Positions 3,759 through 51,574 of a stretch of DNA of 64,000 nt are shown one piece after another (the first letter of the stretch is position 1; the number at the start of each line of letters is the position of its first letter). The position numbers and the translations under genes were made by a program. This DNA comes from Gammaproteobacteria bacterium (GTDB lineage: Bacteria > Pseudomonadota > Gammaproteobacteria > SZUA-152), in contig JAOUJW010000021.1 in the NCBI GenBank assembly GCA_029882975.1, forward strand, positions 1 through 64,000, given 5' to 3'. Below the pieces are notes generated by a model that was not told the origin of the DNA, did no database searches, and was given only the letters and a program-made list of their open reading frames with translations.

Positions 3759-3882
3759 CAAGGCTGTAATTTCCTCTTCGGTTTGTGTCAATATCGACCC
3801 TTCAGGACTCTGTTTCTTTTTGCCGCATTTGTAATGGTCAACACCGCCGGTGTTCAGCGTTCGCGCCTTCGGGATCGATTTG

Positions 3883-6130: not shown

Positions 6131-8341
6131 ATGAGCGGAACAATCAATCGAAGAAGTTTTTTGAAAATGATGGGCTGGGGCGGTGCTGGAGCTGCGCTCA
6201 GCGGTTGTGACCTGCCAACAACAGTCACCTTAGAAGAAGGTAAGGAAGATGTTGTTTCTTATCTTATGCCGGAGGAATATGTGATACCGGGTGTGGGCGT
6301 ATGGTATGCATCCACCTGCACTCAATGCGCTGCTGCCTGCGGAACCCACGGTCGCGTACGTGAAGGACGCGTTTTGAAAATGGAAGGTAATCCGGTGTCT
6401 CCCCTAAACAAGGGGAAACTGTGCATGATGGGGCAGGCCGGTGTACAGGGGCACTATCATCCTGACCGAATTACCGAGCCGCAGATCCGCAAAAACGGCA
6501 GTTTAACACGGGTTAGTTGGGATCAGGCATTTGCTACCATTCAGGAAAAAGTGGGAGCCGCCGGCGAGAAGGTTGCGTGGTTTACCGGAAGCATCAGTGG
6601 CCATCAAAAGGTTTTACTGGATAATCATCTGGGTGCCTTGGGCTCCAACAACCATTTTGTTCATGAAGTGTTGAATACCGCGGTATGGCAAGCGGTAAGT
6701 AAAGATATGCTGGGTGATGCCAGTCCCAATTTACGCATCGATAAATCGGATTTAGTGTTGTCGTTCGGTGCTGACTTTTTGGGAACCTGGATGAGTTCTC
6801 CAGTGCACTTTGCCACTCAATACGCCAAATTTCGCACCAAGAAAGAACGCGGCATGCTGGTACAGATTGAACCAAAAATGACTTTGACCGGCGGTAGTGC
6901 TGACTGGTGGTTGCCGTCCAAACCCGGCAGTGAAGGTTTGATTGCTTTGGCCTTGGCCAATGAGCTAATCACCACTTACTCCAAAGATACAACGGCATTG
7001 AGTGATGAGACGGTAGCTCTGATTAAGCAAAACGACGTGGCCTCTGTTGCAAAGGCGACGGGAATGAGTGCCGAACAAATTAAGAAATTGGCTGCCTTGG
7101 CTGCGCGTAAGAAAAACGTGCTGGCTCTGGCGGGAGCGCCGGTGGAAGGTCACACCAACGGATACGCTGCAGTATCCGCCATTATGGTGTTGAACGTGTT
7201 GTTGGGCAGCGTGGGTAAAACCATCGAATCCGGCGGGGCGTTTCCCTTCGCGCAATTACAAGCGCGCAGTGGTAATAGCGGGGATTTACTTAGATTTACT
7301 GAGGCTGCCAAAGCATCCAAGCTGGACGTGGTGTTTTTTCATGGCAGTAATCCCGTGTACAGTGCGCCCAACAGTGTCGGCATGGAAGCGGCGTTGAAAA
7401 ACGTTGGGTTAAAAGTGGCTATCAGCCAATTTAACAACGAGACCACGGCAATGGCCGATGTGATTCTGCCGGAGTCCTCCTATCTGGAAGACTGGGGTAC
7501 CCATGTTGGTTCGCATCAGGCAGAACAAAATGTCATAGGTATGCAGCAACCCCTTATGGAAAAGCTCTATGAAAACACCAAAGGCTTGGGAGATGTGTTG
7601 CTTGCTCTGTTGAAACAGGCGAAGCAAGCCGAGTACGGGCAATACGCAGATTATTATGCGTATTTACGCCACGCCTTTAGCAGCATGCCTGCGTCTTACA
7701 AATCGGACCCGGCTTCAGACGAGCACTCCTGGAACAATGTATTGGCTAATGGTGTGATTAACGTTGAAACCACAGATCAGCCCCTAAGTGTCGCTAAAGT
7801 GGCTTTAAGCGCCCCTGCGATATCGGCGGATGATTCTCAATATCCATTGCACTTAGTGCCTTCCGGGCGTTTGGGCTTGTGGGATGGGCGTCACGCCAAT
7901 CTTCCTTGGTTGCAGGAAGCTCCGGACCAGATCAGTAAAGTGGTGTGGGATTCGTGGGCAGAGTTGCACCCCAATACGGCTAAGAAACTGGGAATTAAAT
8001 CCGGAAATATTATTAAGGTGCAATCCAAACAGGGTGAAGTAAAACTTAAAGCCGTGTTGCTGAAAAGTACACACCCGGATGTCATCGCTATTCCTATGGG
8101 GCAGGGTCATACCGAGTACGGTCGCTATGCTACCGGTCTTGGGGTGAACCCCTTAAAAATTCTGGCCACGGAAACCGAGTCCAAAACCGGAGAGTTGGCC
8201 ATGTATGCAACACGAGTCAAAGTTAGTAAGACTAATGATGATGATGTGGTGGTGAAAATGGGAAGCAGCGATACTCAAATGGGACGTAAGTTTGTGGTTA
8301 CCGTACCTGTCGCTCAGGTCCGACGTACGGAAGGAGTGTAA
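6131..8341 (+). CDS. actB1: ActB1, molybdopterin-oxidoreductase-like subunit of alternative complex III
   Basis: 736 residues of the complex-iron-sulfur molybdoenzyme fold. The N terminus is a Tat signal (NRRSFLK) followed by SGC at residue 26, so it looks like a Tat-exported lipoprotein. Cysteines 63, 66, 70 and 98 (C-x2-C-x3-C-x27-C) could bind a [4Fe-4S] cluster. In the characterised alternative complex III this domain carries no molybdenum and, as I recall, no cluster, so the retained cysteines are notable. In known complexes B1 is usually fused to the ferredoxin-like B2; here B2 is the next gene, 3 bases downstream. Whether it binds molybdopterin cannot be told by eye. Confidence 0.9.
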   Translation: MSGTINRRSFLKMMGWGGAGAALSGCDLPTTVTLEEGKEDVVSYLMPEEYVIPGVGVWYASTCTQCAAACGTHGRVREGRVLKMEGNPVSPLNKGKLCMMGQAGVQGHYHPDRITEPQIRKNGSLTRVSWDQAFATIQEKVGAAGEKVAWFTGSISGHQKVLLDNHLGALGSNNHFVHEVLNTAVWQAVSKDMLGDASPNLRIDKSDLVLSFGADFLGTWMSSPVHFATQYAKFRTKKERGMLVQIEPKMTLTGGSADWWLPSKPGSEGLIALALANELITTYSKDTTALSDETVALIKQNDVASVAKATGMSAEQIKKLAALAARKKNVLALAGAPVEGHTNGYAAVSAIMVLNVLLGSVGKTIESGGAFPFAQLQARSGNSGDLLRFTEAAKASKLDVVFFHGSNPVYSAPNSVGMEAALKNVGLKVAISQFNNETTAMADVILPESSYLEDWGTHVGSHQAEQNVIGMQQPLMEKLYENTKGLGDVLLALLKQAKQAEYGQYADYYAYLRHAFSSMPASYKSDPASDEHSWNNVLANGVINVETTDQPLSVAKVALSAPAISADDSQYPLHLVPSGRLGLWDGRHANLPWLQEAPDQISKVVWDSWAELHPNTAKKLGIKSGNIIKVQSKQGEVKLKAVLLKSTHPDVIAIPMGQGHTEYGRYATGLGVNPLKILATETESKTGELAMYATRVKVSKTNDDDVVVKMGSSDTQMGRKFVVTVPVAQVRRTEGV

Positions 8342-8344
8342 GCG

Positions 8345-9178
8345 ATGTCATTGAGCAATGTTTTAAACAACTGGTCGGAATTTAGAAAAGGTGCCGAGGA
8401 AGGTGGGCACCATAAATACGAGCATAAATGGGCAATGGCCATTAACCTGGATTTGTGTATTGGCTGTAACGCTTGTTCCACAGCTTGTTACGCTGAGAAC
8501 AACCTGGCCGTTGTAGGTAAAGAACGTTTCGAAAAAGGTCAGGCTATGCACTGGTTGCGGGTCGAACGTTATTGGGATCAATCCGAGAAAGAGTTTCCGG
8601 AGCAGGGTGCCAGTTATTTGCCTATGATGTGCCAGCAATGTAATTCAGCCACTTGTGAGCCGGTGTGTCCTGTGGCAGCAACCTATCACACGCCCGACGG
8701 GCTCAATGCACAAGTTTATAATCGTTGTATCGGTTCACGTTATTGTTCCAATAACTGTCCGTTCCGTGTGCGTTATTTTAACTTTTATTCCTACTACGAG
8801 TCTTCCTGGCCGGAGCCACTGCATATGCAGTTAAATCCGGACTTAACGGTACGCGACAAGGGCGTTATGGAGAAGTGCACTTTCTGTATCCAGCGTATTC
8901 GTACCGCAAAAGACAAAGCCAAAATGGAAGACCGTAAAGTGATTGATGGCGAATTCCAAACCGCTTGTGCTCAAGCCTGTCCCACATCTGCCATAGTGTT
9001 TGGTGATTCTATGGACGAGAACAGTCAGGTGAGCCAGTTATGGAAAAAACATGAAGTGAAAATGGGTCTGTACAAGCAGAATAAAACCGAACCGCAAAAA
9101 CGCGGCTACCGGATTTTTGAGGAGCTGAATGTGGATCCTTCCATCATGTATTTGGAAAGGGTGCGGGAAGAAGCCTAA
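8345..9178 (+). CDS. actB2: ActB2, four-cluster iron-sulfur subunit of alternative complex III
   Basis: 277 residues, NrfC/PsrB-type ferredoxin. Four cysteine groups are visible: C38/41/44/48, C96/99/104/108, C128/134/138 and C178/181/208/212. The third group has Ser131 where a fourth cysteine would be, giving three ligands, consistent with the single [3Fe-4S] plus three [4Fe-4S] clusters known for ActB. It should pass electrons between the quinol site in ActC and the haems of ActA. It has no signal peptide of its own and would travel with the Tat-exported B1. It follows actB1 almost without gap. Confidence 0.93.
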   Translation: MSLSNVLNNWSEFRKGAEEGGHHKYEHKWAMAINLDLCIGCNACSTACYAENNLAVVGKERFEKGQAMHWLRVERYWDQSEKEFPEQGASYLPMMCQQCNSATCEPVCPVAATYHTPDGLNAQVYNRCIGSRYCSNNCPFRVRYFNFYSYYESSWPEPLHMQLNPDLTVRDKGVMEKCTFCIQRIRTAKDKAKMEDRKVIDGEFQTACAQACPTSAIVFGDSMDENSQVSQLWKKHEVKMGLYKQNKTEPQKRGYRIFEELNVDPSIMYLERVREEA

Positions 9179-9223
9179 CTTTTTTCAATTCGACAATAAT
9201 GCAAAAAATGGTGAATTGTTGTT

Positions 9224-10642
9224 ATGTCTATGATTAACGAAAAAGATATAAATGAACAAATTGCGTGGGCAAAGATTAATGCCGATGTCCTGCGCAGTAT
9301 GGAGAATCCTCGCAAGGCGTACTGGATATCGGTTGCTGTGTGTCTGGCCATGCTGGCCTGTGCAGTGGTAGCGGAAATTTATCAGTATCAGGTGGGGATG
9401 GGGCCGGCGAACTTAAATAACCCACACATGTGGGATATGTATATTGCCTCCTTTGTATTCTGGATTGGTATGAGCCATTCGGGAACCTTGCTATCGGCTA
9501 TATTGCATATTATTCATGCCGACTGGCGTAAGCCTATTTATCGGTTTGCCGAGGCCATGACCACGTTTTCACTCATGACGGCAGGTTTTTTCCCGATTAT
9601 TCACATTGGTCGTTTGTGGAACATGTATTGGGTGTTACCGTATGTCAGCGACAGGGGGCATTGGCCTAATTTTCGCTCCCCACTGGTATGGGACGCGTTT
9701 GCAATCAGTACGTATTTGTCAGCGTCTATGTTGTTCCTGTTTGTGGGTATGATCCCCGATTTGGCTATTTGTCGAGATAACGCTAAAGGCTGGCAGAAAA
9801 AATTGTATACAGCCCTGTCATTGGGATGGAGCGGTACTGACCGGCAATGGCGGAACTTCCGTAAAACCTATATGTTGATGGCGTGTTTCCTGATTCCTCT
9901 GGCTGTATCGGTGCATTCCATCGTATCGTCCGACTTCGCCATGTCCATCATGCCCGGTTGGCACGTGACTACCTTCCCACCGTATTTCGTGGCCGGTGCT
10001 TTGTATTCCGGTTGTGCGGCTATTATCACCTTGTTTGTATTGTTGCGTTATTACTTCCACTTTGAGGAGTATATGACCAAAGCGATTATGGAAAAAACCT
10101 GTAAGCTGACTTTTGCGATCGCCATGGTTTGGACTTATCTGAACCTGGTGGAGTTCGCTTCTGTGTGGTATGGCCATGATATCTACAACAAAGAGTTGCT
10201 GATTGCCAAGGCGGTTGGACCCTATGCCTGGGTATTCTGGACCATGATTTTCTGTGGTTCCATCTTACCGTTTGCGCTGGCCGTACAAAAACTGAGACGT
10301 CACATGCCCACCATGTTCGTGGTATCCCTGGGATTGAACGTAGGTATGTTTTTTGAGCGGTGGATGATTGTAGCGCCTACCCTGTCCATGTCGCATAACC
10401 CGCATCAGTGGGATGTTATGTGGGGCAGTATTGTCGAATGGGCTATCGTATTTGGAAGCTTTGGTTGGTTCGGGTTGTTGTTCCTGGTGTTTGTAAAAGT
10501 ATTTCCCTCCGTATCCATGTACGAAGTGAAAGAAATGGTTTATCACCGTCGCAGACATTTAGTAAATGAGGGTGCAGCCAAGAGTTTGCATCGTAGAGCA
10601 AGTGATGCAAAACCATCTGAACCTGGTGTGGAGGGTGCGTAA
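9224..10642 (+). CDS. actC: ActC, NrfD/PsrC-type quinol-binding membrane subunit
   Basis: 472 residues with about ten hydrophobic helices and the NrfD-family pattern (HMWDMYIASFVFW near residue 67, ISHSG-like MSHSG, MPGWHVTTFPPYF near 245). ActC holds the quinol site and, with ActF, the membrane proton path of alternative complex III. The C-terminal 40 residues are hydrophilic. It lies 45 bases after actB2 and 2 bases before actD, so is cotranscribed. Confidence 0.92.
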   Translation: MSMINEKDINEQIAWAKINADVLRSMENPRKAYWISVAVCLAMLACAVVAEIYQYQVGMGPANLNNPHMWDMYIASFVFWIGMSHSGTLLSAILHIIHADWRKPIYRFAEAMTTFSLMTAGFFPIIHIGRLWNMYWVLPYVSDRGHWPNFRSPLVWDAFAISTYLSASMLFLFVGMIPDLAICRDNAKGWQKKLYTALSLGWSGTDRQWRNFRKTYMLMACFLIPLAVSVHSIVSSDFAMSIMPGWHVTTFPPYFVAGALYSGCAAIITLFVLLRYYFHFEEYMTKAIMEKTCKLTFAIAMVWTYLNLVEFASVWYGHDIYNKELLIAKAVGPYAWVFWTMIFCGSILPFALAVQKLRRHMPTMFVVSLGLNVGMFFERWMIVAPTLSMSHNPHQWDVMWGSIVEWAIVFGSFGWFGLLFLVFVKVFPSVSMYEVKEMVYHRRRHLVNEGAAKSLHRRASDAKPSEPGVEGA

Positions 10643-10644
10643 TT

Positions 10645-11172
10645 ATGAAACGGCATAGTGTAATGGCCTTGTTTAGTGACTTCGAAGAGGCTTTTGGAGC
10701 AATTTCCGATATACGCCATGCGGCGGTTCCTGGAATCGGTGTGGATGACGTTACTTTAAAGTCACCCATTGAACATCCGGAGATTGAAGAAGTATTGGGC
10801 GAACGCCCCGTACATATTCAAAAACTGACCCTGTTCGGCGCGTTGTTTGGTTTAATCTTTGGGTTTTTCTTTCTCTCTGGTGCTCAAGCCACTTTTTTGG
10901 TTCAGCCTCAGGGAGGGAAACCGGTTATCCCTTTACCATCCAATTTTGTCTTGATGTATGAGATGCTGATTTTCTTTGGTGTGTGGATTACATTCTTTTC
11001 ATTCCTGTTTCTATCGGGTTTGTTTAAGAAACGTCATCCCCTCTACAGTGAAAATGTAAGTTTGGATCAGATAGGCGTCCTGTTGGAAGTGGACGAGGAC
11101 AAGCTGCAACCGTTGAAGGATTTGTTTAATAAGCATAAGGCGGTGGAAATTCGTGAAGGGGTGTTGGAATGA
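10645..11172 (+). CDS. actD: ActD, DUF3341 membrane subunit of alternative complex III
   Basis: 175 residues. The N-terminal ~60 residues are soluble (FSDFEEAFGAI, HPEIEEVLGE), followed by two transmembrane helices (about residues 54-75 and 100-123), the form of DUF3341/ActD. It is a structural subunit without cofactors. Its last four bases overlap the actE start (ATGA), indicating translational coupling. Confidence 0.9.
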   Translation: MKRHSVMALFSDFEEAFGAISDIRHAAVPGIGVDDVTLKSPIEHPEIEEVLGERPVHIQKLTLFGALFGLIFGFFFLSGAQATFLVQPQGGKPVIPLPSNFVLMYEMLIFFGVWITFFSFLFLSGLFKKRHPLYSENVSLDQIGVLLEVDEDKLQPLKDLFNKHKAVEIREGVLE

Positions 11173-11678
11173 AGAAGTTTAGTCTTGTTTTCGCGGCTGC
11201 GATGTTGCCGTCTGTGGTGTTTGCGTGGCCATGGTCTACCGACATGATGAATCAGCCCAGCATTAAACCCCAGGAAGGCCAAATGCGGCCATTTCCAAAA
11301 CGTTCCGTTCCGGTGATGGGAATACCTACCAAGGTGAAAAATCGGGATGAAGCAGAAACGCTGGCTAATCCCATTGCGGTCGGTGAGGCCTCACTGAAAA
11401 AAGGCCGAACGCTGTTTCGTATCTATTGTGCGGCGTGTCACGGACTTACCGGTAAGGGTGATGCACCGGCGGGGGTGTTACTTGGTGCAGCGGATTTAAC
11501 CCAGGATTATATCCAGCAGTACAGTGATGGCCGACTCTGGGGCACTATCACCTTTGGTAGCGTGATCATGCCTGCTTATGGTGTGGTTACCGAAGAAGGC
11601 GGCTCCAACGATTTGTCGGTGGAAGAGCGTTGGCATGTGGTGAATTACCTTAAGAATGCCTTGCGGCAGGAAAAATAG
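11169..11678 (+). CDS. actE: ActE, mono-haem cytochrome c subunit of alternative complex III
   Basis: 169 residues with a cleavable signal peptide (to about residue 19) and one haem-c site CAACH near residues 95-99; MPAYG near residue 135 supplies the likely axial methionine. ActE is the mono-haem electron exit subunit. Known ActE proteins are often lipoproteins, but here the predicted cleavage region FAWPWS has no cysteine. It overlaps actD by 4 bases and precedes actF by 61 bases. Confidence 0.92.
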   Translation: MKKFSLVFAAAMLPSVVFAWPWSTDMMNQPSIKPQEGQMRPFPKRSVPVMGIPTKVKNRDEAETLANPIAVGEASLKKGRTLFRIYCAACHGLTGKGDAPAGVLLGAADLTQDYIQQYSDGRLWGTITFGSVIMPAYGVVTEEGGSNDLSVEERWHVVNYLKNALRQEK

Positions 11679-11739
11679 ACGGGGCCGGATATGTACTTGG
11701 CAGTTCATTTAAATTCAGAAAAATAGGGGTAGAGGATCA

Positions 11740-12777
11740 ATGGAAGGTTTTGGTAGTTGGTCGATATTGACCACAAACTTTTTAGTCGTGCTGTATCTGG
11801 CACTGGCGGGTGTAACATTTGCGGCGATCCTTCATTTGGTCAACGGCAAATGGCGCTTTCAAGTCCGGTACTACGCCGTGGCTTTGGCCGCCTTGTTTCC
11901 CTTGGCATTTATTCTGCTGATTGTTTTATTGATCGGCGGTGAAAACACATTTCAATGGTTGGGGCATCATGATGGCGGCGGGGAACACCATCTCAATGGA
12001 TGGCACAATTATACGTTCTTAGTGGCGCGACAAATTTTGGGCTTTTTGGCAGTGGCGGGTTTCTTCGCACTGTTTATCAAGTATCAATATTTGACCAGCA
12101 CCACTGACTCCTATGAAGTTCATCGCAAGTTTCGTAATATTGCGTTGACCATACCGGGTGTGTATGTGCTTTACGGCACCATGGTAGCGTGGGATTTTGA
12201 AATGACAATGATTCCCGGCTGGCACAGCGCCAGTTACGGTGTCTATCAGTTCGTGAGTATGTTTCATGCTTTTCTGGCGTTTTTTGCCATCATGCTGTTT
12301 TTCCTCAAACGGTCCGGAAAAATGAACCGTCCCATAGAGCCTTTTGTGTTTAACTTTTTAGCGCAAATGATGCTGGCTTTCACCATACTGTGGACGTATT
12401 TCTACTTCACCCAGTATTTGATTATGTGGTACGGACGTCTACCGGAGGAAATGACTCGCTTCCATTCCATGATGCAAAATGACTTGGCGCCAATTTGGTG
12501 GACCTTTCTGGCACTGAAGTTCATTATTCCTTTTGTCACCTTTGCTACATGGACCGATAATCGTCATAACCCCTACGTGATCGTGATGGTTGCCACCGGA
12601 TTGTTGGTGGGTACATGGCTGGAGCGTTATACTTGGATTTCCGGCTCGGTGGATCCTAAGTTCTACCACATTCCCATGACTTCCATTATGGATATCATAG
12701 TAACAGTGGTTATCGCCGCGGCAGGTTATGTCTCGGTTAAATGGGCATTAAACCGTTACGGTCTTATTAGAGCCTGA
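11740..12777 (+). CDS. actF: ActF, second NrfD-like membrane subunit of alternative complex III
   Basis: 345 residues with about nine or ten hydrophobic helices; a His-rich loop (HHDGGGEHH, residues 75-83) and MIPGWHSASYGVYQF (near 157) match ActF. ActF is the ActC paralogue that does not carry the quinol site. It is the last gene of the run: a strong terminator lies 27 bases after its stop. No haem-copper oxidase genes follow, unlike many act operons. Confidence 0.9.
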   Translation: MEGFGSWSILTTNFLVVLYLALAGVTFAAILHLVNGKWRFQVRYYAVALAALFPLAFILLIVLLIGGENTFQWLGHHDGGGEHHLNGWHNYTFLVARQILGFLAVAGFFALFIKYQYLTSTTDSYEVHRKFRNIALTIPGVYVLYGTMVAWDFEMTMIPGWHSASYGVYQFVSMFHAFLAFFAIMLFFLKRSGKMNRPIEPFVFNFLAQMMLAFTILWTYFYFTQYLIMWYGRLPEEMTRFHSMMQNDLAPIWWTFLALKFIIPFVTFATWTDNRHNPYVIVMVATGLLVGTWLERYTWISGSVDPKFYHIPMTSIMDIIVTVVIAAAGYVSVKWALNRYGLIRA

Positions 12778-12803
12778 CCGAGCACTCAACTCGACTGAGT
12801 AAC

Positions 12804-12831
12804 AAAAACCCCGCATCGCGGGGTTTTTTTT
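12804..12831. terminator. Bidirectional intrinsic terminator between act operon and hemerythrin gene
   Basis: AACCCCGC and GCGGGGTT form an 8-bp stem with an ATC loop, extended by flanking A5 and T8. The A and T tracts on either side make it work in both directions, serving actF (plus) and the convergent hemerythrin gene (minus). Confidence 0.93.
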
Positions 12832-12850
12832 GTCTCGTGGAATAGCAAAA

Positions 12851-13258
12851 CTAATTTATACCGTTGCGGTTCAGGAATTTTGCATAGGATTTGTCTTTAG
12901 CAAGAATGTGTTCTGTGAGCCAGTTTTTTAAGTATTCCAGCGTATCGGAACAAAGCGTGGGGTTGTCTCCCAGTTCTTGGATAATGGATTGTGCTTTAAG
13001 ATTAAAAGCATCATTGTGTGATTTGTATTCAGGCAATTCAGGAAACTCCAGACGCTGAAACATTTCCTCTTCAGCAATGAAGTGGTTCATGGCATGCTCC
13101 AATAATTGAAACAGCGCATCGCTGATCCGTCCTTGATCCGGTGGGGACTGTGTTGCCATACTGTGCAAATGATTCACGCCATTCATCAATTCCCGGTGTT
13201 GTGAATCTATAAATTCAATGTTGACCGCCAAATCATCTGACCACTGTAGCAATGCCAT
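12851..13258 (-). CDS. Bacteriohemerythrin
   Basis: 135 residues covering the whole four-helix hemerythrin fold. The di-iron ligands are visible: H21 in IDSQHREL, the HxxxE pair in HAMNHFIAEEE (about residues 60-64), H80 in KSHN, and H-x4-D in EHILAKD near residue 116. Such proteins bind oxygen, as sensors or as oxygen shuttles to oxidases. There is no other domain and no signal peptide, so it is a single-domain cytoplasmic form. It ends facing the act operon. Its nearness to two quinol oxidation complexes suggests but does not prove a respiratory role. Confidence 0.92.
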   Translation of the reverse strand: MALLQWSDDLAVNIEFIDSQHRELMNGVNHLHSMATQSPPDQGRISDALFQLLEHAMNHFIAEEEMFQRLEFPELPEYKSHNDAFNLKAQSIIQELGDNPTLCSDTLEYLKNWLTEHILAKDKSYAKFLNRNGIN

Positions 13259-13657
13259 AGTAACGTCCTCTTGTTATTTTGGGTGGATTTGTCGGCCCCC
13301 TCGGTTTTAGGCAAACAAGCATGCGGCAGCAATTTATATGAAGGGGGCTTTGTGTTTTTGCTTATCGGCAGGGGAGAGGTGATCTTTGGTTGAATCTTAA
13401 ATTTTATTTTAGATTTTGCAGCAACTTCGTTACATCGATTTGCTCGGAGATTATTGCGCCATGAGAAGACGTCTAACGTGTTGAATTATTGACTGTAATT
13501 CCTTAGAAAAAGAATAGGCCAAGCTTTAATCGCATTAGCTTATCATAATATTAATAAATTAATGGATGCATATTGGTATAAATCTGCTATGCTTTGCACC
13601 TGTATTTTGGTCGCCGGGAGTGAATTTATGTTGAGAATACAAAAGGCTGGATAGGCG
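13259..13657. other. Divergent promoter region between hemerythrin gene and petABC
   Basis: About 400 A+T-rich bases with no ORF. It should contain promoters for the hemerythrin gene (minus) and petABC (plus). An extended -10 candidate lies at 13585-13593; nothing else is clear. Confidence 0.5.
13585..13593 (+). promoter_or_regulatory. Extended -10 candidate for petABC
   Basis: TGCTATGCT matches TGn plus a -10 hexamer (TATGCT) about 65 bases before petA. No good -35 is seen, which an extended -10 can tolerate. Confidence 0.3.
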
Positions 13658-14251
13658 ATGAGCGAGGAAATCGATAAGAAAAAACGTCGGATTTTGCTGG
13701 CCGCCGCGGCCGCTATGGGCGGGGTCGGTGGTGCATACGTTGCCACTCCTTTCATTCTATCAATGGATCCCAGTGCCAAAGCTGAAGCGGCAGGTGCCCC
13801 GGTCGATGTTGATATCAGTAAACTGGAAGTCGGACAGCTAATGACGGTGGAATGGCGCGGTAAACCCGTCTGGATTCTTCGTCGCAGTGAAGCCATGCTG
13901 GATAGTATGAAGACTCTGGATTCCGATTTGCGCGATCCTCAATCGAATGAACTGACTCAGCAACCCAATTACACCAAGAACCCTCATCGTTCTTTAAATC
14001 CAGAATTTATGGTTATGATCGGGATTTGTACTCACTTGGGGTGTGCTCCGACCTACCGTCCGGATTTGGCTCCCGCTGATTTGGGCGCCGCTTGGAAGGG
14101 CGGGTTTTTTTGTCCCTGCCACGGTTCACGTTATGATCTGGCTGGCCGGGTCTATGCCGGGGTACCGGCACCCTCTAATTTGGTGGTACCGCCGTACCGT
14201 TTTGTAACAGGAACCCGTTTATTAATCGGTGTGGATCCGGAGCACGCATAA
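13658..14251 (+). CDS. petA: Ubiquinol-cytochrome c reductase, Rieske iron-sulfur subunit
   Basis: 197 residues. Twin-arginine-like start (KKKRRILLAA) and a membrane anchor to about residue 34, then a Rieske domain. Cluster ligands are clear: C124-T-H126-L-G-C129 and C152-P-C154-H155-G-S. It accepts electrons from quinol at the Qo site and passes them to cytochrome c1. Its stop overlaps the cytochrome b start (TAATG), so the two are translationally coupled. Confidence 0.97.
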   Translation: MSEEIDKKKRRILLAAAAAMGGVGGAYVATPFILSMDPSAKAEAAGAPVDVDISKLEVGQLMTVEWRGKPVWILRRSEAMLDSMKTLDSDLRDPQSNELTQQPNYTKNPHRSLNPEFMVMIGICTHLGCAPTYRPDLAPADLGAAWKGGFFCPCHGSRYDLAGRVYAGVPAPSNLVVPPYRFVTGTRLLIGVDPEHA

Positions 14252-15474
14252 TGCAAAACTGGTGGTTAATCAGTCGTGAATGGCTGGATGCTAGATTTCC
14301 CGTTACCCAATTTTGGCGGGATCATTTATCTCACTATTACGCACCGAAGAATCTGAACTTTTGGTACTTCTTCGGTTCTTTGGCGTTGATGATGCTGGTG
14401 ATACAACTGCTCACCGGTATTTTCCTGACCATGAATTACAAGCCCACCGCCGATACAGCCTTTGCATCGGTGGAGTACATCATGAGAGATGTGAAATGGG
14501 GATGGTTGATACGATATATTCATTCTTCCGGCGCTTCCTTTTTCTTTATTGTGGTGTATTTGCACATGTTCAGGGCGTTGCTGTATGGGTCATACCGCGG
14601 GCCTAGAGAATTGCTGTGGGTGTTCGGGATGTTTCTGTTTGCCCTATTAATGGCAGAGGCGTTTATGGGATATCTGTTACCTTGGGGGCAAATGTCGTTT
14701 TGGGGTGCGCAGGTGATTATTTCACTGTTTGGAGCCATACCTTACATAGGCAGTGATTTGGCTCTATGGATTCGTGGTGACTATGTGGTAGCGGACGCCA
14801 CATTAAATCGATTTTTCGCCTTCCATGTGATCGCTTTTCCGCTGGTGTTGATTATCCTGGTGGTGTTCCATTTAACCGCGTTACATAAAGTGGGCTCTAA
14901 TAATCCTGACGGAATTGAAATCAAAAAGCATAAAAATGAAAAAGGCATTCCCATTGACGGAATTCCGTTTCATCCATACTACACCATTAAGGATATGGCG
15001 GGAGCAGTAGCCTTCTTGTTTTTGTTTGCCGTAGTTATTTTTTACGCGCCGGAAATGGGTGGCTGGTTCCTGGAAAAAGACAATTTTGTCCCAGCCAATC
15101 CGTTAAAAACACCTGAGCATATCGCGCCACTTTGGTACTTCACTCCGTTCTACGCCATCTTACGGGCAGTGCCGGACAAGTTTTTGGGCGTCATGTGTAT
15201 GGGGGCGTCCATCGCGGTGTTGTTCCTGTTGCCCTGGTTGGATCGCAGTCCCGTGAAGTCGATTCGCTATAAAGGTTGGATTTTCAGAACGGCGCTTGCG
15301 CTTTTTACGGTCAGCTTCATTGGCTTGGCCTACTTGGGTACGGTGCCCGCAACACCGCTGGCCACGCGGTTCTCGCAGCTATTCAGTATTTTGTACTTTG
15401 CTTTTTTCCTATTAATGCCCTTCTATTCGCGCTGGGATAAATGCAAGGAACCACCGGATAGGGTGACCAAGTAA
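14251..15474 (+). CDS. petB: Cytochrome b of the bc1 complex
   Basis: 407 residues, full-length with eight helices. Haem ligand pairs H91/H105 and H192/H207 are present. The Qo-site motif PEWY of most bc1 and b6f complexes reads PLWY at residues 293-296, so the glutamate is missing; I believe such variants occur in other gammaproteobacteria. It forms the quinol oxidation and reduction sites in the inner membrane. One-base overlap with petA and with petC. Confidence 0.97.
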   Translation: MQNWWLISREWLDARFPVTQFWRDHLSHYYAPKNLNFWYFFGSLALMMLVIQLLTGIFLTMNYKPTADTAFASVEYIMRDVKWGWLIRYIHSSGASFFFIVVYLHMFRALLYGSYRGPRELLWVFGMFLFALLMAEAFMGYLLPWGQMSFWGAQVIISLFGAIPYIGSDLALWIRGDYVVADATLNRFFAFHVIAFPLVLIILVVFHLTALHKVGSNNPDGIEIKKHKNEKGIPIDGIPFHPYYTIKDMAGAVAFLFLFAVVIFYAPEMGGWFLEKDNFVPANPLKTPEHIAPLWYFTPFYAILRAVPDKFLGVMCMGASIAVLFLLPWLDRSPVKSIRYKGWIFRTALALFTVSFIGLAYLGTVPATPLATRFSQLFSILYFAFFLLMPFYSRWDKCKEPPDRVTK

Positions 15475-16226
15475 TGGGTGTTCAATATAAGAGTTTTGTG
15501 GTGTTGGGTGCCTTACTCCTGGTATTGCCGGGCATGGCGCTTGCTGCCTCCAAGCTGACTTTGGATAAAGCGGATATCGATCCTTTGGATAAGGAATCTC
15601 TACGTCGCGGTGCACAGTACTTTGCCAATTACTGTTTCAATTGTCACTCCATCCAATTTATGCGCTATAGCCGAATTGCCAAGGACTTGCAGCTCACGGA
15701 AGATGAAGTGTCATCCATGATGATTTTCACCGGGGCGAAGGTGGGCGATCCTATGAATGTGGCTTTGTTGCCCGACGATGCCAAGCGTTGGTTTGGCACA
15801 ACGCCTCCCGATTTGTCGGTGGTGTCTCGTTCACGAGGAGTGGATTGGATTTATACCTACTTACGTTCGTTTTACCGCGATGATTCCCGTCCCTGGGGTG
15901 TTAATAATGCGGTCTTTAAAGACGTGGCTATGCCCCATGTATTATGGGAATTGCAAGGACTACAGGAAGCCGTGTACGGCAGTGTTACTACCCCGGACGG
16001 CGTGGAGCACAAAGTGATTGCCGGGCTGAATCTGGTACAAAAAGGTCAATTGGCTGCCAAAGACTACGATGCGGTGGTAAGAGATATCGTCAATTTTCTG
16101 GCTTATGTTGGCGAACCCACCAAAAACACACGATTAGCATTGGGCAAATGGGTGTTAATTTTTCTTGCTATGTATTTTGTTGTGCTGGTATTCCTCAAAA
16201 AAGAATACTGGAAAGACATCAAATAA
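15474..16226 (+). CDS. petC: Cytochrome c1 of the bc1 complex
   Basis: 250 residues. Signal peptide to about residue 25, one haem-c site CFNCH at residues 54-58, and a C-terminal anchor helix (LGKWVLIFLAMYFVVLVFL). It takes electrons from the Rieske centre and gives them to soluble cytochrome c. Start overlaps the petB stop by one base. A promoter for sspA lies just downstream. Confidence 0.97.
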   Translation: MGVQYKSFVVLGALLLVLPGMALAASKLTLDKADIDPLDKESLRRGAQYFANYCFNCHSIQFMRYSRIAKDLQLTEDEVSSMMIFTGAKVGDPMNVALLPDDAKRWFGTTPPDLSVVSRSRGVDWIYTYLRSFYRDDSRPWGVNNAVFKDVAMPHVLWELQGLQEAVYGSVTTPDGVEHKVIAGLNLVQKGQLAAKDYDAVVRDIVNFLAYVGEPTKNTRLALGKWVLIFLAMYFVVLVFLKKEYWKDIK

Positions 16227-45922: not shown

Positions 45923-46091
45923 AGGCAAATCGGGCTTTTGTGTCTGAATATCTTTATAGCGGCAATCATTTAGCAATCATTGTAAAAGGTGATTTACATT
46001 TGTGGTGTCGTAAGGCGTTGATGTAGTGGGAAATACAGTTGTGAGAAAACGGCGGCTTGACAGCAGGTGGGAGCTGGATCATAATTAAAAC

Positions 46092-46103
46092 GAACACTCG
46101 TTC
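46092..46103. promoter_or_regulatory. Palindromic operator candidate for the TetR cassette
   Basis: GAAC-N4-GTTC within AACGAACACTCGTTCTT, 21 bases before the tetR start. Position and symmetry fit autoregulation by the TetR protein coded just downstream. Confidence 0.5.
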
Positions 46104-46123
46104 TTTATTAAAGGTGAAAAAGA

Positions 46124-46795
46124 ATGGCTCCCAAAGTTTCTGACCAGCATCAAGAGGCCCGTCGACAACAGATTCTCAAGGCGGCCTTGGTTTGTTTTGC
46201 GGCGAACGGCTTTCATAAGACCACCATGCGGGATATCTGCCGCGAAGCCGGTCTTAGTACCGGTGCGGTTTACAGCTATTTCGAAAACAAGGAAGTCTTG
46301 ATTCGAGCCTTGAATGAATGGGGAAGACAATTGAATCAGGCGGCATTCAACGCCGGTACAACGGAAGCAGGCTCACAGGAGACACTGTCCCCGCAAGCGG
46401 TCATGTCTAAAGTATTGCGGGCGTTCATACTTCGAGCGGGCGATCCCACCATGCGCAATGCCATACGAGCCGATGCCATGTTTATGACGGAGATGCTCAC
46501 GGATGACAAACTGGCGCATATGGGTTGTGAGGAATACGAACAACAACTGGTGGGAACTATAATTAACATCGTAACTCAGATGCAGGAGACTGGATGCATG
46601 GATGCTCAGTGCAACAGCCGTGCCGTAGCGGAAGTGTTGTTCAGTTTAGTGCAAGGGGTTTATTGGCAAATATTGATCAATCCCAATTTGGACCTGCATG
46701 CCTATGCAGATGCTGTAGAAGCAACTGTGTTCGGCCGGTTGTGGATATCAACACCGGGATGTGTTGAACCCAATGGCGGTCCGGAGAAGGACTAA
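46124..46795 (+). CDS. TetR-family transcriptional regulator
   Basis: 223 residues. The N-terminal helix-turn-helix is clear (ILKAALVCFAANGFHKTTMRDICREAGLSTGAVYSYF written across residues 17-53; recognition helix STGAVYSYF). The ligand-binding C-terminal domain is variable and gives no ligand. The RND permease gene starts 15 bases downstream, so it is probably the repressor of its own cassette. Confidence 0.93.
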   Translation: MAPKVSDQHQEARRQQILKAALVCFAANGFHKTTMRDICREAGLSTGAVYSYFENKEVLIRALNEWGRQLNQAAFNAGTTEAGSQETLSPQAVMSKVLRAFILRAGDPTMRNAIRADAMFMTEMLTDDKLAHMGCEEYEQQLVGTIINIVTQMQETGCMDAQCNSRAVAEVLFSLVQGVYWQILINPNLDLHAYADAVEATVFGRLWISTPGCVEPNGGPEKD

Positions 46796-46810
46796 ACCAC
46801 AAGTTAGTAA

Positions 46811-49402
46811 ATGGAAAAACCGATGAAGAAAATGCTGAGTGATTTGGGAAGGGTTTTTGAACGTCTGCCGGACGGGTTAAGGAATAGGCGCTGGTGGATC
46901 TGGTCCGGGTTTCTGCTTAGTCTGGTGTTGTTGTTGCCCGGAGCAGGTAAATTCGAGCTGGATTTATCGGATGAGCAGTTTTTTCGGGAACAAGATCCGG
47001 TGCGTGCGGCTTATGACAGATTTCGGGCCCACTTTGGTGGAGATGAGTCCATCTATATTGTGTACCGTCCCAAAGACGGTGATTTGTTCTCCGATGCTTC
47101 TTTGAAAGCCTTACAGGGAATACAAGAAGAGTTGCTCAACTATCGGGCTCAATTAGCACCGGGGGAGTCTTCGCCGTTTGATCGTGTTACGGATGTGACC
47201 ACTTTGCTAAATGTGAGTTATCTGGAAGCCAGTGACGACGCACTGATAGCCCGGCCGTTTATCGGGCAGGATTTGCCGGTAACACAAGCACAACGTGCGC
47301 TACTGAAGCGCCAAGCCCTGGAGCACCCTATTTATCCCATGGTCTACATATCGCCGGATGGTAGCTATGGCGGTATTTTGATACATACGGATTTTAAGGC
47401 AACCAAGGTCCGTCCGGCAACGGAAGTCAGTGATATTAGTCTGGACAATATCGACATGGACGCTTTTGATGTAACCAAAGCTCAAAGTTCTTCAGAAACA
47501 CTTTATGCCAATTCCGAATTCGAATTTGTCACCATGGAAGAGTACGCCAGGGTGACCAAGGCCATTTATGCCGTTATCTATAAAAGCCAATACCTCGATG
47601 TCCTGGAATATTTTCCTATGGGGGCTCCGGTTGTAAATACGTATGTTCTGGATGAGATGGCACCGCAGGTCAATATGGTCATGGCTATTTCTCTGCTGTT
47701 GATCATTGTAATTCAGTGGTTTCTCTTTCGATCCTTGTCTGCCGTGGTGTGGCCTCAGCTGATTATCATTGTATCAGCCGCCATGGTTGTAGCGACTCTG
47801 GGGTGGTTGGGTATAACCATGAACCTGATGATTAACGTGGTGATTCTGCTGGTGATGGTGGTGGGTGTGGCCGATTCGGTGCATATCTTGTCCGGCTATA
47901 TGTACTTTCGAAACCAGGGGCAAGTCCATGAGCAGGCTTTACGCTCCACTTTCCGAAAATCGGGGGTGGCGGTTTTACTGACTACATTAACAACGGGATT
48001 GGGTATGTTGTCCTTGACCATTGTCCCGTTGGTACCAATTCAAAATATGGGGATCGCGGCCGCCTTGGGAGTGTTTTTCGCCTTCGTTATGAGTATTGTG
48101 ATTTTGCCCTTGATGTTGGATATTTGGAATCCCGTAGGCAAACGCGGTGTCGCCGGACACCACAGAGTGCAAAAATGGTTGCGCCGGATAGAGCACTGGG
48201 GTTACGAGCAACCGAAGTTAAATATTACCGTGTTTGCCGTCATTATGGTGGTTTTCCTGGTGGGCGTGAGTAAGGTTGAAGTGGATTCCAATTTTATGGA
48301 ATTGTTTGATACGGACTCTCCCATACGCATTGCGCAAGAAACGGCAGAAGCCAAAATGGGCGGTACCATGGGAATGGAACTCATGGTGAGTTCTGAAACT
48401 GACGATACGTTTAGGGATCCACAAGTGCTCAATGCCATGGATGGTTTTCAACAGTGGCTGCGAACCACGTATCCGGATGTCATGGTGCGCATTTACTCTA
48501 TTGTTGATGTTGTGAAAGACGCCAATCGTTCCCTCAACGGTGGCCGTGAAGAAGCCTATAGTGTGCCGCAGGATGAGCAGGTATTACGCCAGACCTTGTT
48601 TATGTTCTCCAATGCCAATCCTAAAGAACGCAGACGGGTGGTGTCAGATACTTACCGGGATGCCCACATTACTTTGCTGATGAAAAATCGTGGTACCAAG
48701 TCATACATTGCCATGGTGCGGCATATGCAGCAGGAGTTGGAACAACGATTTGCGCCACTCAAAGAGCGTTACCCGCAATTGAACGTTACGCCAACCGGTG
48801 GTTTGGTTTTGATGATTAAAATCCTGGACTTTGTCAGTTGGTCCCAGATCCGGGGTTTTAGCCTTGCTCTGCTGGCTATTAGTGTGGTTCTGTTGTTGAC
48901 CTTCCGTTCCGTCAGGGTGGGGTTGTTGGCATTGTTTCCCAATTTATTGCCTTTATCCGTCGTGTTCGGATTAATGGGGTATTTGGGAATTCCTTTGGAT
49001 GCGGACACCTTGATTGTGGCGCCGGTTATGATTGGTATTGTGGTGGATGATACTATTCATTTTCTCACACATTACCGGGCTTTGATGGAAGAGAAAGGGG
49101 ATATTGATGCAGCGATAGTTGATTCGTTTAGGGAAGTTGGTCAAGCCATTACCTTTACTACAGTGATATTGCTGGGAGCATTTTTGGCCTTTGGCTTGTT
49201 GGATCATCAGGGAATAAAGAACTTTGGATTGTTGGCGGGGGTGGCTGTTGCAACCGCTTTGGCCGGGGATTTGTTGTTGCTGCCCGCTCTTTTGAAAGTA
49301 ACACGCAGTACCTTTGGCTTTGGCCCGGCACAAACTGCTTCACGAAGAACTCAGTCAGAGACGGTTGCCTCGTCGCCGGGTATTACAGGAGAAACCAAAT
49401 GA
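46811..49402 (+). CDS. RND-superfamily permease, MMPL/HAE3 type
   Basis: 863 residues. Two halves each with six transmembrane helices and one large periplasmic loop: helix 1 near 33-50, helices 2-6 about 280-440, helix 7 near 475-490 and helices 8-12 about 685-845. This layout and size fit the HAE3/MmpL/HpnN group that moves lipids and hydrophobic molecules, smaller than drug-efflux AcrB (~1,040). There is no adaptor (HlyD/AcrA) gene in the cassette. It overlaps the LolA-like gene by 4 bases (ATGA), which argues for joint function. Confidence 0.92.
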   Translation: MEKPMKKMLSDLGRVFERLPDGLRNRRWWIWSGFLLSLVLLLPGAGKFELDLSDEQFFREQDPVRAAYDRFRAHFGGDESIYIVYRPKDGDLFSDASLKALQGIQEELLNYRAQLAPGESSPFDRVTDVTTLLNVSYLEASDDALIARPFIGQDLPVTQAQRALLKRQALEHPIYPMVYISPDGSYGGILIHTDFKATKVRPATEVSDISLDNIDMDAFDVTKAQSSSETLYANSEFEFVTMEEYARVTKAIYAVIYKSQYLDVLEYFPMGAPVVNTYVLDEMAPQVNMVMAISLLLIIVIQWFLFRSLSAVVWPQLIIIVSAAMVVATLGWLGITMNLMINVVILLVMVVGVADSVHILSGYMYFRNQGQVHEQALRSTFRKSGVAVLLTTLTTGLGMLSLTIVPLVPIQNMGIAAALGVFFAFVMSIVILPLMLDIWNPVGKRGVAGHHRVQKWLRRIEHWGYEQPKLNITVFAVIMVVFLVGVSKVEVDSNFMELFDTDSPIRIAQETAEAKMGGTMGMELMVSSETDDTFRDPQVLNAMDGFQQWLRTTYPDVMVRIYSIVDVVKDANRSLNGGREEAYSVPQDEQVLRQTLFMFSNANPKERRRVVSDTYRDAHITLLMKNRGTKSYIAMVRHMQQELEQRFAPLKERYPQLNVTPTGGLVLMIKILDFVSWSQIRGFSLALLAISVVLLLTFRSVRVGLLALFPNLLPLSVVFGLMGYLGIPLDADTLIVAPVMIGIVVDDTIHFLTHYRALMEEKGDIDAAIVDSFREVGQAITFTTVILLGAFLAFGLLDHQGIKNFGLLAGVAVATALAGDLLLLPALLKVTRSTFGFGPAQTASRRTQSETVASSPGITGETK

Positions 49403-50280
49403 AACAAGCTTTTTTTTACGTATGTGCTGCACTGATAGGAATGGGCTTGAATTTTGGAATCGGTTCCGCTCACGCCGGTCAGGCTGAAGATATTATGCAA
49501 CGGGTCGTGGATCGCGATGACGGTGCAAGTAATTATTCCAAGCAAATAGTGGCTACCTGTCGCTATACCATTAGCGCTGGACGGTTGGCTTGTGCGGATA
49601 CCCCCAGAGTAAAAGTATTGGAAAGCGTGCAAAAGGATTTTGGTGACAATGGGAAAGACAGTCGCAGTATCAGTTTTATACAAAAGCCGGTGGCAGAGCA
49701 GGGTATTGGGTTTTTACAATACGATTATGATGATCCGCTAAAGGATACAGACCAATGGATGTATTTATCGGCACTGAATAAAGTCAAACGCATAGTGTCA
49801 GGTAAGCAAAATCAACCTAAGGAAGGTACCTTGTTTGGCTCGGAAATCGCGTATGAGGATGTCGAACGTCCGCATCTGGATGACTATTCCTATCGCTTGT
49901 TGAAGGAAGAGACTTTTCAGGGACGTCCTTGTTGGGTGATAGAGGCGGTCCCAAAGCCGGAGCGGGCTCGTAAAAGCAATTACTCAAAGTCAGTGCAATG
50001 GATCGATAAAGAACGGGACATGGCTTTGAAAATAGTTTCCTATGACCGACGTCAGCGTGAGGTTAAGCAGGTGACTTTTGCTGCAATTAAATTGATAAAT
50101 AATATCTGGGTGGCACATAGGATTAATTTCAATAACGTGCAAACCCGACGAATCACGACCATGAAAACGGATGGGATAAAAATGAATATAGATGTGGAAG
50201 ATGAACTGTTTGGGCAAAGGGCGCTTACGGATGCAGGCTATCGCGCCGGCCGGCTACAACAATTGCGCGGTCAATTGTAG
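49399..50280 (+). CDS. LolA-fold periplasmic protein (outer-membrane lipoprotein-sorting type)
   Basis: 293 residues. Signal peptide to about residue 27 (SAHA|GQAED). The mature protein has the pattern of PF17131-type LolA-like proteins: IMQRVVDRDDG, DPLKDTDQWMYL, RIVSGKQ and GTLFGSEIAYEDVERP. The fold binds acyl chains in a beta half-barrel. Start overlaps the permease gene and the beta-barrel gene begins 7 bases after its stop, so it is well placed as a periplasmic shuttle between the two. It is distinct from true LolA at 38036. Confidence 0.88.
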   Translation: MKQAFFYVCAALIGMGLNFGIGSAHAGQAEDIMQRVVDRDDGASNYSKQIVATCRYTISAGRLACADTPRVKVLESVQKDFGDNGKDSRSISFIQKPVAEQGIGFLQYDYDDPLKDTDQWMYLSALNKVKRIVSGKQNQPKEGTLFGSEIAYEDVERPHLDDYSYRLLKEETFQGRPCWVIEAVPKPERARKSNYSKSVQWIDKERDMALKIVSYDRRQREVKQVTFAAIKLINNIWVAHRINFNNVQTRRITTMKTDGIKMNIDVEDELFGQRALTDAGYRAGRLQQLRGQL

Positions 50281-50287
50281 ACAGGGT

Positions 50288-51574
50288 ATGAGACAATTAC
50301 TCTATACCTTGGTGCTAGGGCTGTTGGTGCCTTCATTGTTCGCGGCAGAAGAGTTGGATATGAATTTTGACGTTACCGGCACAATGGAAACCGACGCGCT
50401 GGATGGTCTGGAAAATCAAAAACCTTGGCGGTTGCACATCAGTTATTTGCAAAACTGGCATTTACCGCAACGACAAACCGACTTGCAGCATCTGGATTTA
50501 AAACTGCAGGTGGAGACGCTGTTGGCTGAACAACTTTACGCAGTAGTGGATGCGACCCTGGTAGCAAGGATAGGCGATGATAGTCAAATCGATGCTAGTC
50601 AAGCGCTGGACTGGGATTCGAGGGTTCAGGCTTTGTATTTGCAGGGTAGATTGGATCAGTTCAGTATGAAAGCAGGTTATCAAACTGCGGTTTGGGGAAA
50701 AATGGATATGCTTGGCGTTACGGATCGCTTAAGCCCCTGGGATTTTTCCCAGTTTGCTTACACCGCACCACAGGATGCGCGTATCGCTCAAGGAATAATC
50801 ACCGCATCGCATTTTATCAACTTCGGCACGGAAGCGGAGTTTGTTTATAATGTCGCTCCACAGGTGAACCGATACCCTGGTGGCGGTGCTCGGTATTTGC
50901 TGGAACAGCAACTGGGGTACCGTAACTTTTCTCTTGACGAAGCCAAACCGCAAACGTTTTCCGATTATGAGCTGGCTTTGCGCTTAAAGCTGAGTAGAGG
51001 GAGTTTTGACGGTACGTTTACCATTGCCCGTTTGTTGCAAAATGACCCGTATTTTGAATTCGTTGCGACCGATCAGTTTCGCGCCCTATATCCGGATTAC
51101 TATTTGCTGGCGTATTCATACAATTTTGCCGGTGATGGGGTATTGTGGAAGTTGGCCTTGGCTTATTCTGCCAAACGCAGTTTGTTTCTGAATGACAAGC
51201 GTACGGAGATGGACTCCATTCAATGGGGTGGGGGGGTGGATTTGAATTTAGGAAACGATTTAATATTAAGTGCGGAAGCGACCTACGCATTCCTGGACCT
51301 ACCCGGTACAGCCCCGGTTCAAAGAAACGATTCCCGGTTGGCGACACGAGTGTCCAAATCTTTCATGCATAAAGATTTGGAAACAGTTTACTATTTTCAG
51401 TACCACGTAGAAGATCACGCCCAAACCCACAGCGGTTCACTCAGCTATCACCTGAACGACGAGTGGTCTGTGGATTTGGTTTGTACCGTGTTTGAGGTTA
51501 ATGACTCGCAGGCACCTACCCAATTTATGGACGATTGGGATAGTGTAAGCATAAAAACCACCTATTCCTGGTAA
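50288..51574 (+). CDS. Outer-membrane beta-barrel protein of the RND/LolA-like cassette
   Basis: 428 residues from ATG 50288 (a longer frame from 50192 lies inside the previous gene). Signal peptide to about residue 18 (LFA|AEE). The mature part alternates polar and aromatic residues with many short strands, and the C terminus ends TTYSW, an aromatic end recognised by the BAM machinery. I cannot assign a substrate; it resembles DUF1302-like barrels found with RND permeases and LolA-like proteins. It closes the cassette, convergent with the DUF3592 gene. Confidence 0.8.
   Translation: MRQLLYTLVLGLLVPSLFAAEELDMNFDVTGTMETDALDGLENQKPWRLHISYLQNWHLPQRQTDLQHLDLKLQVETLLAEQLYAVVDATLVARIGDDSQIDASQALDWDSRVQALYLQGRLDQFSMKAGYQTAVWGKMDMLGVTDRLSPWDFSQFAYTAPQDARIAQGIITASHFINFGTEAEFVYNVAPQVNRYPGGGARYLLEQQLGYRNFSLDEAKPQTFSDYELALRLKLSRGSFDGTFTIARLLQNDPYFEFVATDQFRALYPDYYLLAYSYNFAGDGVLWKLALAYSAKRSLFLNDKRTEMDSIQWGGGVDLNLGNDLILSAEATYAFLDLPGTAPVQRNDSRLATRVSKSFMHKDLETVYYFQYHVEDHAQTHSGSLSYHLNDEWSVDLVCTVFEVNDSQAPTQFMDDWDSVSIKTTYSW

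Follow-up and report, generated by a model that had tools for sequence, protein, structure and literature searches.

The locus considered here raises the question of whether four closely packed genes could form a dedicated route for moving a hydrophobic cargo across the cell envelope, and if so in which direction. In the window (the whole 64,000-nucleotide stretch of DNA that was analyzed), a gene for a TetR/AcrR-family regulator of 223 aa (46124..46795, + strand; PF00440, TetR_N, 4.3e-17) is followed after 15 bp by one for an MMPL/HAE3-like RND permease of 863 aa with two large periplasmic loops (46811..49402, + strand). The permease is over the cut-off of PF03176 (9.7e-28), and its match to the nearest NCBIfam model, HAE3 TIGR00921, is strong (E 1e-62) yet below that model's curated cut-off. 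Its gene overlaps by an ATGA (a distance of -4 bp) that of a LolA-like periplasmic protein of 293 aa (49399..50280, + strand; PF17131, LolA_like, 3.3e-49), from which 7 bp lead to the gene for a DUF1302-like outer-membrane beta-barrel of 428 aa (50288..51574, + strand). Both flanking genes, a PAS-GGDEF gene and a DUF3592 gene, are on the opposite strand, so the four-gene run is self-contained. Family searches of the flanking genes found no membrane-fusion or adaptor gene in or directly beside the run and no TolC-type channel gene there either, and a tripartite HAE1 efflux pump was rejected on these two grounds. The first-pass annotation had described one tight run holding a TetR gene, an HAE3-type RND permease without an adaptor, and a LolA-fold protein coupled to it by an ATGA overlap; the family matches and gaps given above bear this out.

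We read the run as a TetR-controlled, adaptor-less MMPL-RND/LolA-like/DUF1302-like operon whose products would use the proton gradient to export a lipid or other hydrophobic compound, handed on by the LolA-like protein to the barrel, a reading to which we assign a probability of about 0.6. Gene order, coupling, family membership, conservation, and a probable autoregulatory operator can be taken from the DNA itself. In the proposed mechanism, the TetR protein would keep its own promoter, and with it all four genes, repressed until it binds a hydrophobic ligand; the permease would then draw the cargo out of the inner membrane at the expense of the proton gradient, the soluble LolA-like protein would ferry it across the periplasm, and the barrel would take it over and insert or release it at the outer membrane.

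The putative shuttle scores 167.5 bits against PF17131 (cut-off 30), has a signal peptide ending in AHA and no lipobox, and is homologous to solved LolA-fold proteins (PDB 9tp6, 1.8e-33; 3bk5; 4z48). LolA proper has the ABC transporter LolCDE as its partner rather than an RND pump, and there is no lipoprotein gene in the cassette. These points make it highly improbable that the LolA-like protein and the barrel act in the sorting of lipoproteins or of an outer-membrane protein, a role that the Pfam name and the fold would imply and that the authors of a study of Thalassolituus proposed in suggesting porin delivery (PMC6304351).

The barrel gene is itself sound, but the start at first assigned to it is not. 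The open reading frame lister had placed it at 50192, inside the LolA-like gene, which gives merely the longest frame; the ATG at 50288 is preferred because it yields a MRQLLYTLVLGLLVPSLFA-AEEL signal peptide and a 428-aa protein with a C-terminal Trp. Neither the window barrel nor that of its nearest relative, L069, has a direct Pfam match, to DUF1302 (PF06980) or otherwise. Same-position barrels of more distant relatives in the clade described below do match DUF1302 (6e-16, 1.5e-11, and 4e-6), as do ten of 13 barrels from other cassettes, and profile-profile comparison of window-type barrels with those of paralogous and other cassettes gives E 1e-46. On the strength of the relatives' matches and the profile match, the protein is named DUF1302-like only. 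AlphaFold models computed from 3-row alignments were poor for both the LolA-like protein (mean pLDDT 45) and the barrel (mean pLDDT 38).

How widespread is such a gene set? A relative of the LolA-like protein is present in 159 of 369 sampled genomes of the class. We chose 40 of these LolA-like loci, distributed over the upper part of the match list, and searched stretches of ~12 kb around them with profiles that had been built from other loci. The LolA-like gene is directly preceded by an RND gene in 33 of the 40 and directly followed by a homologous barrel gene in 32; the three occur together in 27. An adjacent upstream TetR gene is seen in 18 loci, and all four genes in 16. The possibility that the three envelope genes are rarely neighbors in other genomes is thus clearly contradicted. 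The host genome has two further RND/LolA-like/barrel cassettes (L082 and L083, at G000:C25, ~65.5-70.5 kb, and G000:C6, ~153-158 kb), which share the gene order of the window cassette but have permeases only 22%–23% identical to it, in two other clades; one of the two has an adjacent TetR gene. At L081 (G201:C262, 3804-12305), two RND/LolA-like pairs converge within 9 kb with a barrel gene in between. Plasmid records returned only distant MMPL genes, one of them with an adjacent lipoprotein-sorting gene. An MMPL/lipoprotein-sorting gene pair on the Pseudoalteromonas plasmid NZ_CP118497.1 (L130, 4914-12049) is directly beside gamma-mobile-trio recombinase genes, which raises the prospect that such cassettes may be mobile cargo.

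The gene set is widespread, and relatives of it are known from work on hydrocarbon and terpene transporters; we therefore regard the cassette as a rare branch of a type already known. In AmeABCD of Castellaniella defragrans, as described in the available text of PMC6394551, an HAE3 RND permease, a LolA-superfamily periplasmic protein, and a DUF1302 barrel are co-encoded with no classical adaptor, much as in the window. The same text, however, places AmeB in DUF1329 and not in PF17131, describes a fourth protein, AmeC (COG4447), puts the RND gene last, with ameABC upstream of ameD, and reports no adjacent TetR gene such as the window has. Membership of the AmeABCD subfamily was rejected, as the window protein belongs to PF17131 with only a partial match to DUF1329 and the run has no COG4447/YCF48 fourth periplasmic gene. 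In Thalassolituus oleivorans, TOL_3187/TOL_3188 combine MMPL and LolA-like domains with a porin-like protein encoded immediately after them; here the two domains are reported on one protein, in contrast to the window, and expression is known (induction on the C28 alkane) but mechanism is not (PMC6304351). In Pseudomonas putida, PP_0765/PP_0766 and PP_2018/PP_2019 supply a DUF1302 barrel, a LolA-related DUF1329 protein, and an RND transporter, for which fitness data, predicted complexes, and a single substrate route from shuttle to barrel have already been put forward; this set differs from the window's in being split over two loci, in its DUF1329 family, and in its link to growth on Tween 20 (PMC10866462). 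DUF1329, YCF48, and MMPL proteins are also found in the 'Nanopod' cluster of a benzene degrader (PMC13101534), and iron-regulated operons of Porphyromonas and Prevotella contain TetR, MMPL, and lipoprotein-sorting genes, in that case accompanied by ABC transporters (PMC10434189). The parts list, the unity of the run, and its adaptor-less layout, as first interpreted, are upheld, with all three envelope genes together in 27 of 40 loci, but the novelty implied for that layout is not, given how common the cassette is and that related systems and the shuttle model are in print. A literature search that covered few subscription papers found no paper on the PF17131 version as such.

These relatives also bear on the direction of transport. 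RND permeases are generally exporters, and no degradation genes flank the cassette, both of which weigh against an inward route, with a hydrophobic growth substrate entering through the barrel and traveling inward on the LolA-like protein while the RND protein powers uptake or recycling. We consider such assimilation unlikely, even though P. putida requires its related proteins to grow on Tween 20 (PMC10866462), TOL_3187/3188 are induced on the C28 alkane (PMC6304351), and further relatives belong to a cluster with high expression in an anaerobic benzene degrader (PMC13101534). Because deletion of AmeABCD reduces monoterpene tolerance and increases Nile Red accumulation, according to the available text of PMC6394551, export or tolerance would by analogy be the likeliest direction. 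The genomic surroundings of the cassette offer no clue to the substrate, and the neighbors of the orthologues tested have no shared theme and offer none either. A search of the host for a wax-ester synthase, as a further such clue, gave no match, and its control search was likewise without a match.

Within this widespread type, the window cassette belongs to a small group. A maximum-likelihood tree of 47 permeases joins the window protein to six others at 100/100, apart from both clades of host paralogues. LolA-like proteins of this clade occur in six genomes of the 369-genome class sample (33%–59% identity) and in a Desulfobacteraceae MAG (L039), which has the same three envelope genes and no detected TetR gene; a TetR gene is detectable in only one clade relative, a point against the reading that we prefer, and this L069 regulator is 50% identical to that of the window. 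Across 23 further genomes of the same order, matches are at paralogue level (E 2.5e-32 or weaker) and no orthologue was detected, and a 398-genome sample of the phylum has no other permease above 30% identity. This patchy distribution suggests horizontal spread or repeated loss. A GC anomaly, sought as a sign of recent transfer, was not found in the cassette (0.47–0.49, like its surroundings).

The clade is marked by a two-Cys insertion in the LolA-like protein (Cys54/Cys65 in the window), found in all aligned clade members except L039, by a C-terminal tail of ~17 residues common to all of them, and by a first periplasmic loop of the permease that is enlarged relative to the C25-type paralogues. 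It is possible, if on the doubtful side, that this rare clade has a distinct substrate of its own and passes it directly from permease to shuttle to barrel, as a dedicated, horizontally spread trans-envelope lipid or hydrocarbon route. An Asp-Asp pair in TM10 (746/747) is invariant in the permease alignment and would be consistent with proton coupling of the kind known from other RND pumps. The Asp of TM4 is not conserved throughout the permeases of the clade, which counts against the proposed export mechanism.

The permease is also homologous to the structures of MmpL4 and HpnN, and a lipid transporter of this kind has to be weighed. HpnN itself works without a co-encoded shuttle or barrel, as far as the available text of PMC6394551 goes, and the window permease was rejected as a hopanoid transporter of that family, since it scores far below the cut-offs of the HpnN models (146 bits against 751.85, and 71 against 1100). 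Constitutive trafficking of an endogenous lipid into the outer membrane, as HpnN does with hopanoids and with no response to outside compounds, would still suit this homology and a LolA-fold shuttle. We find it improbable, as no lipid-synthesis genes adjoin the cassette, the clade is too rare and patchy for a housekeeping lipid pathway, and the adjacent TetR gene with its single dedicated candidate operator suggests inducible control.

Export under TetR control, the reading we prefer, draws on the region upstream of the regulator gene. A sigma-70-type promoter (TTGACA-N17-CATAAT; 46057..46085, + strand) shares its -35 box and 17-bp spacing with the L069 TetR upstream region, and the candidate TetR operator, AACGAACACTCGTTCTTT (46089..46106, no strand assigned), lies immediately 3' of its -10 box. 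This 18-bp site was at first described as palindromic, but the palindrome is imperfect (6-bp arms with five of six positions paired, around a 6-bp center), and its symmetry alone is not beyond chance; it is retained as an operator only since a related site recurs in L069. There, AACGAACGAGCATTCGTT lies just 3' of a TTGACA-N17-TATATA promoter, before the TetR orthologue, and equals the window site at 15 of 18 bases in the best ungapped comparison, which 0.5% of shuffled pairs match or exceed. At one mismatch or fewer, AACGAACACTCGTTCTTT is a single site in the 5.2-Mb host genome. The recurrence in L069 and this uniqueness make it likely, from sequence comparison, that the TetR protein is a local autorepressor at its own promoter. 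In L081, the TetR gene at 3804 is preceded by GGACGAGCATTCGTT, which resembles the L069 operator and hints at an operator type shared between the two regulators; the L081 protein is distant and belongs to another clade.

If real, transfer by a soluble shuttle from an RND pump to an outer-membrane barrel would join tripartite pumps and bridge-type lipid transporters as a further way of crossing the envelope; the cassette type is very common in bacteria and little studied. Compact and complete, and with a probable operator that is single and dedicated, the window cassette would serve well as a model in the search for both inducer and cargo. Elsewhere in the window (6131-16226), cytochrome b and c1-like genes come after a set of molybdopterin oxidoreductase-like, 4Fe-4S, NrfD-like, and other membrane genes; judged by eye from the translations, the set resembles a respiratory cluster of the alternative complex III type, or a related one, beside bc1.
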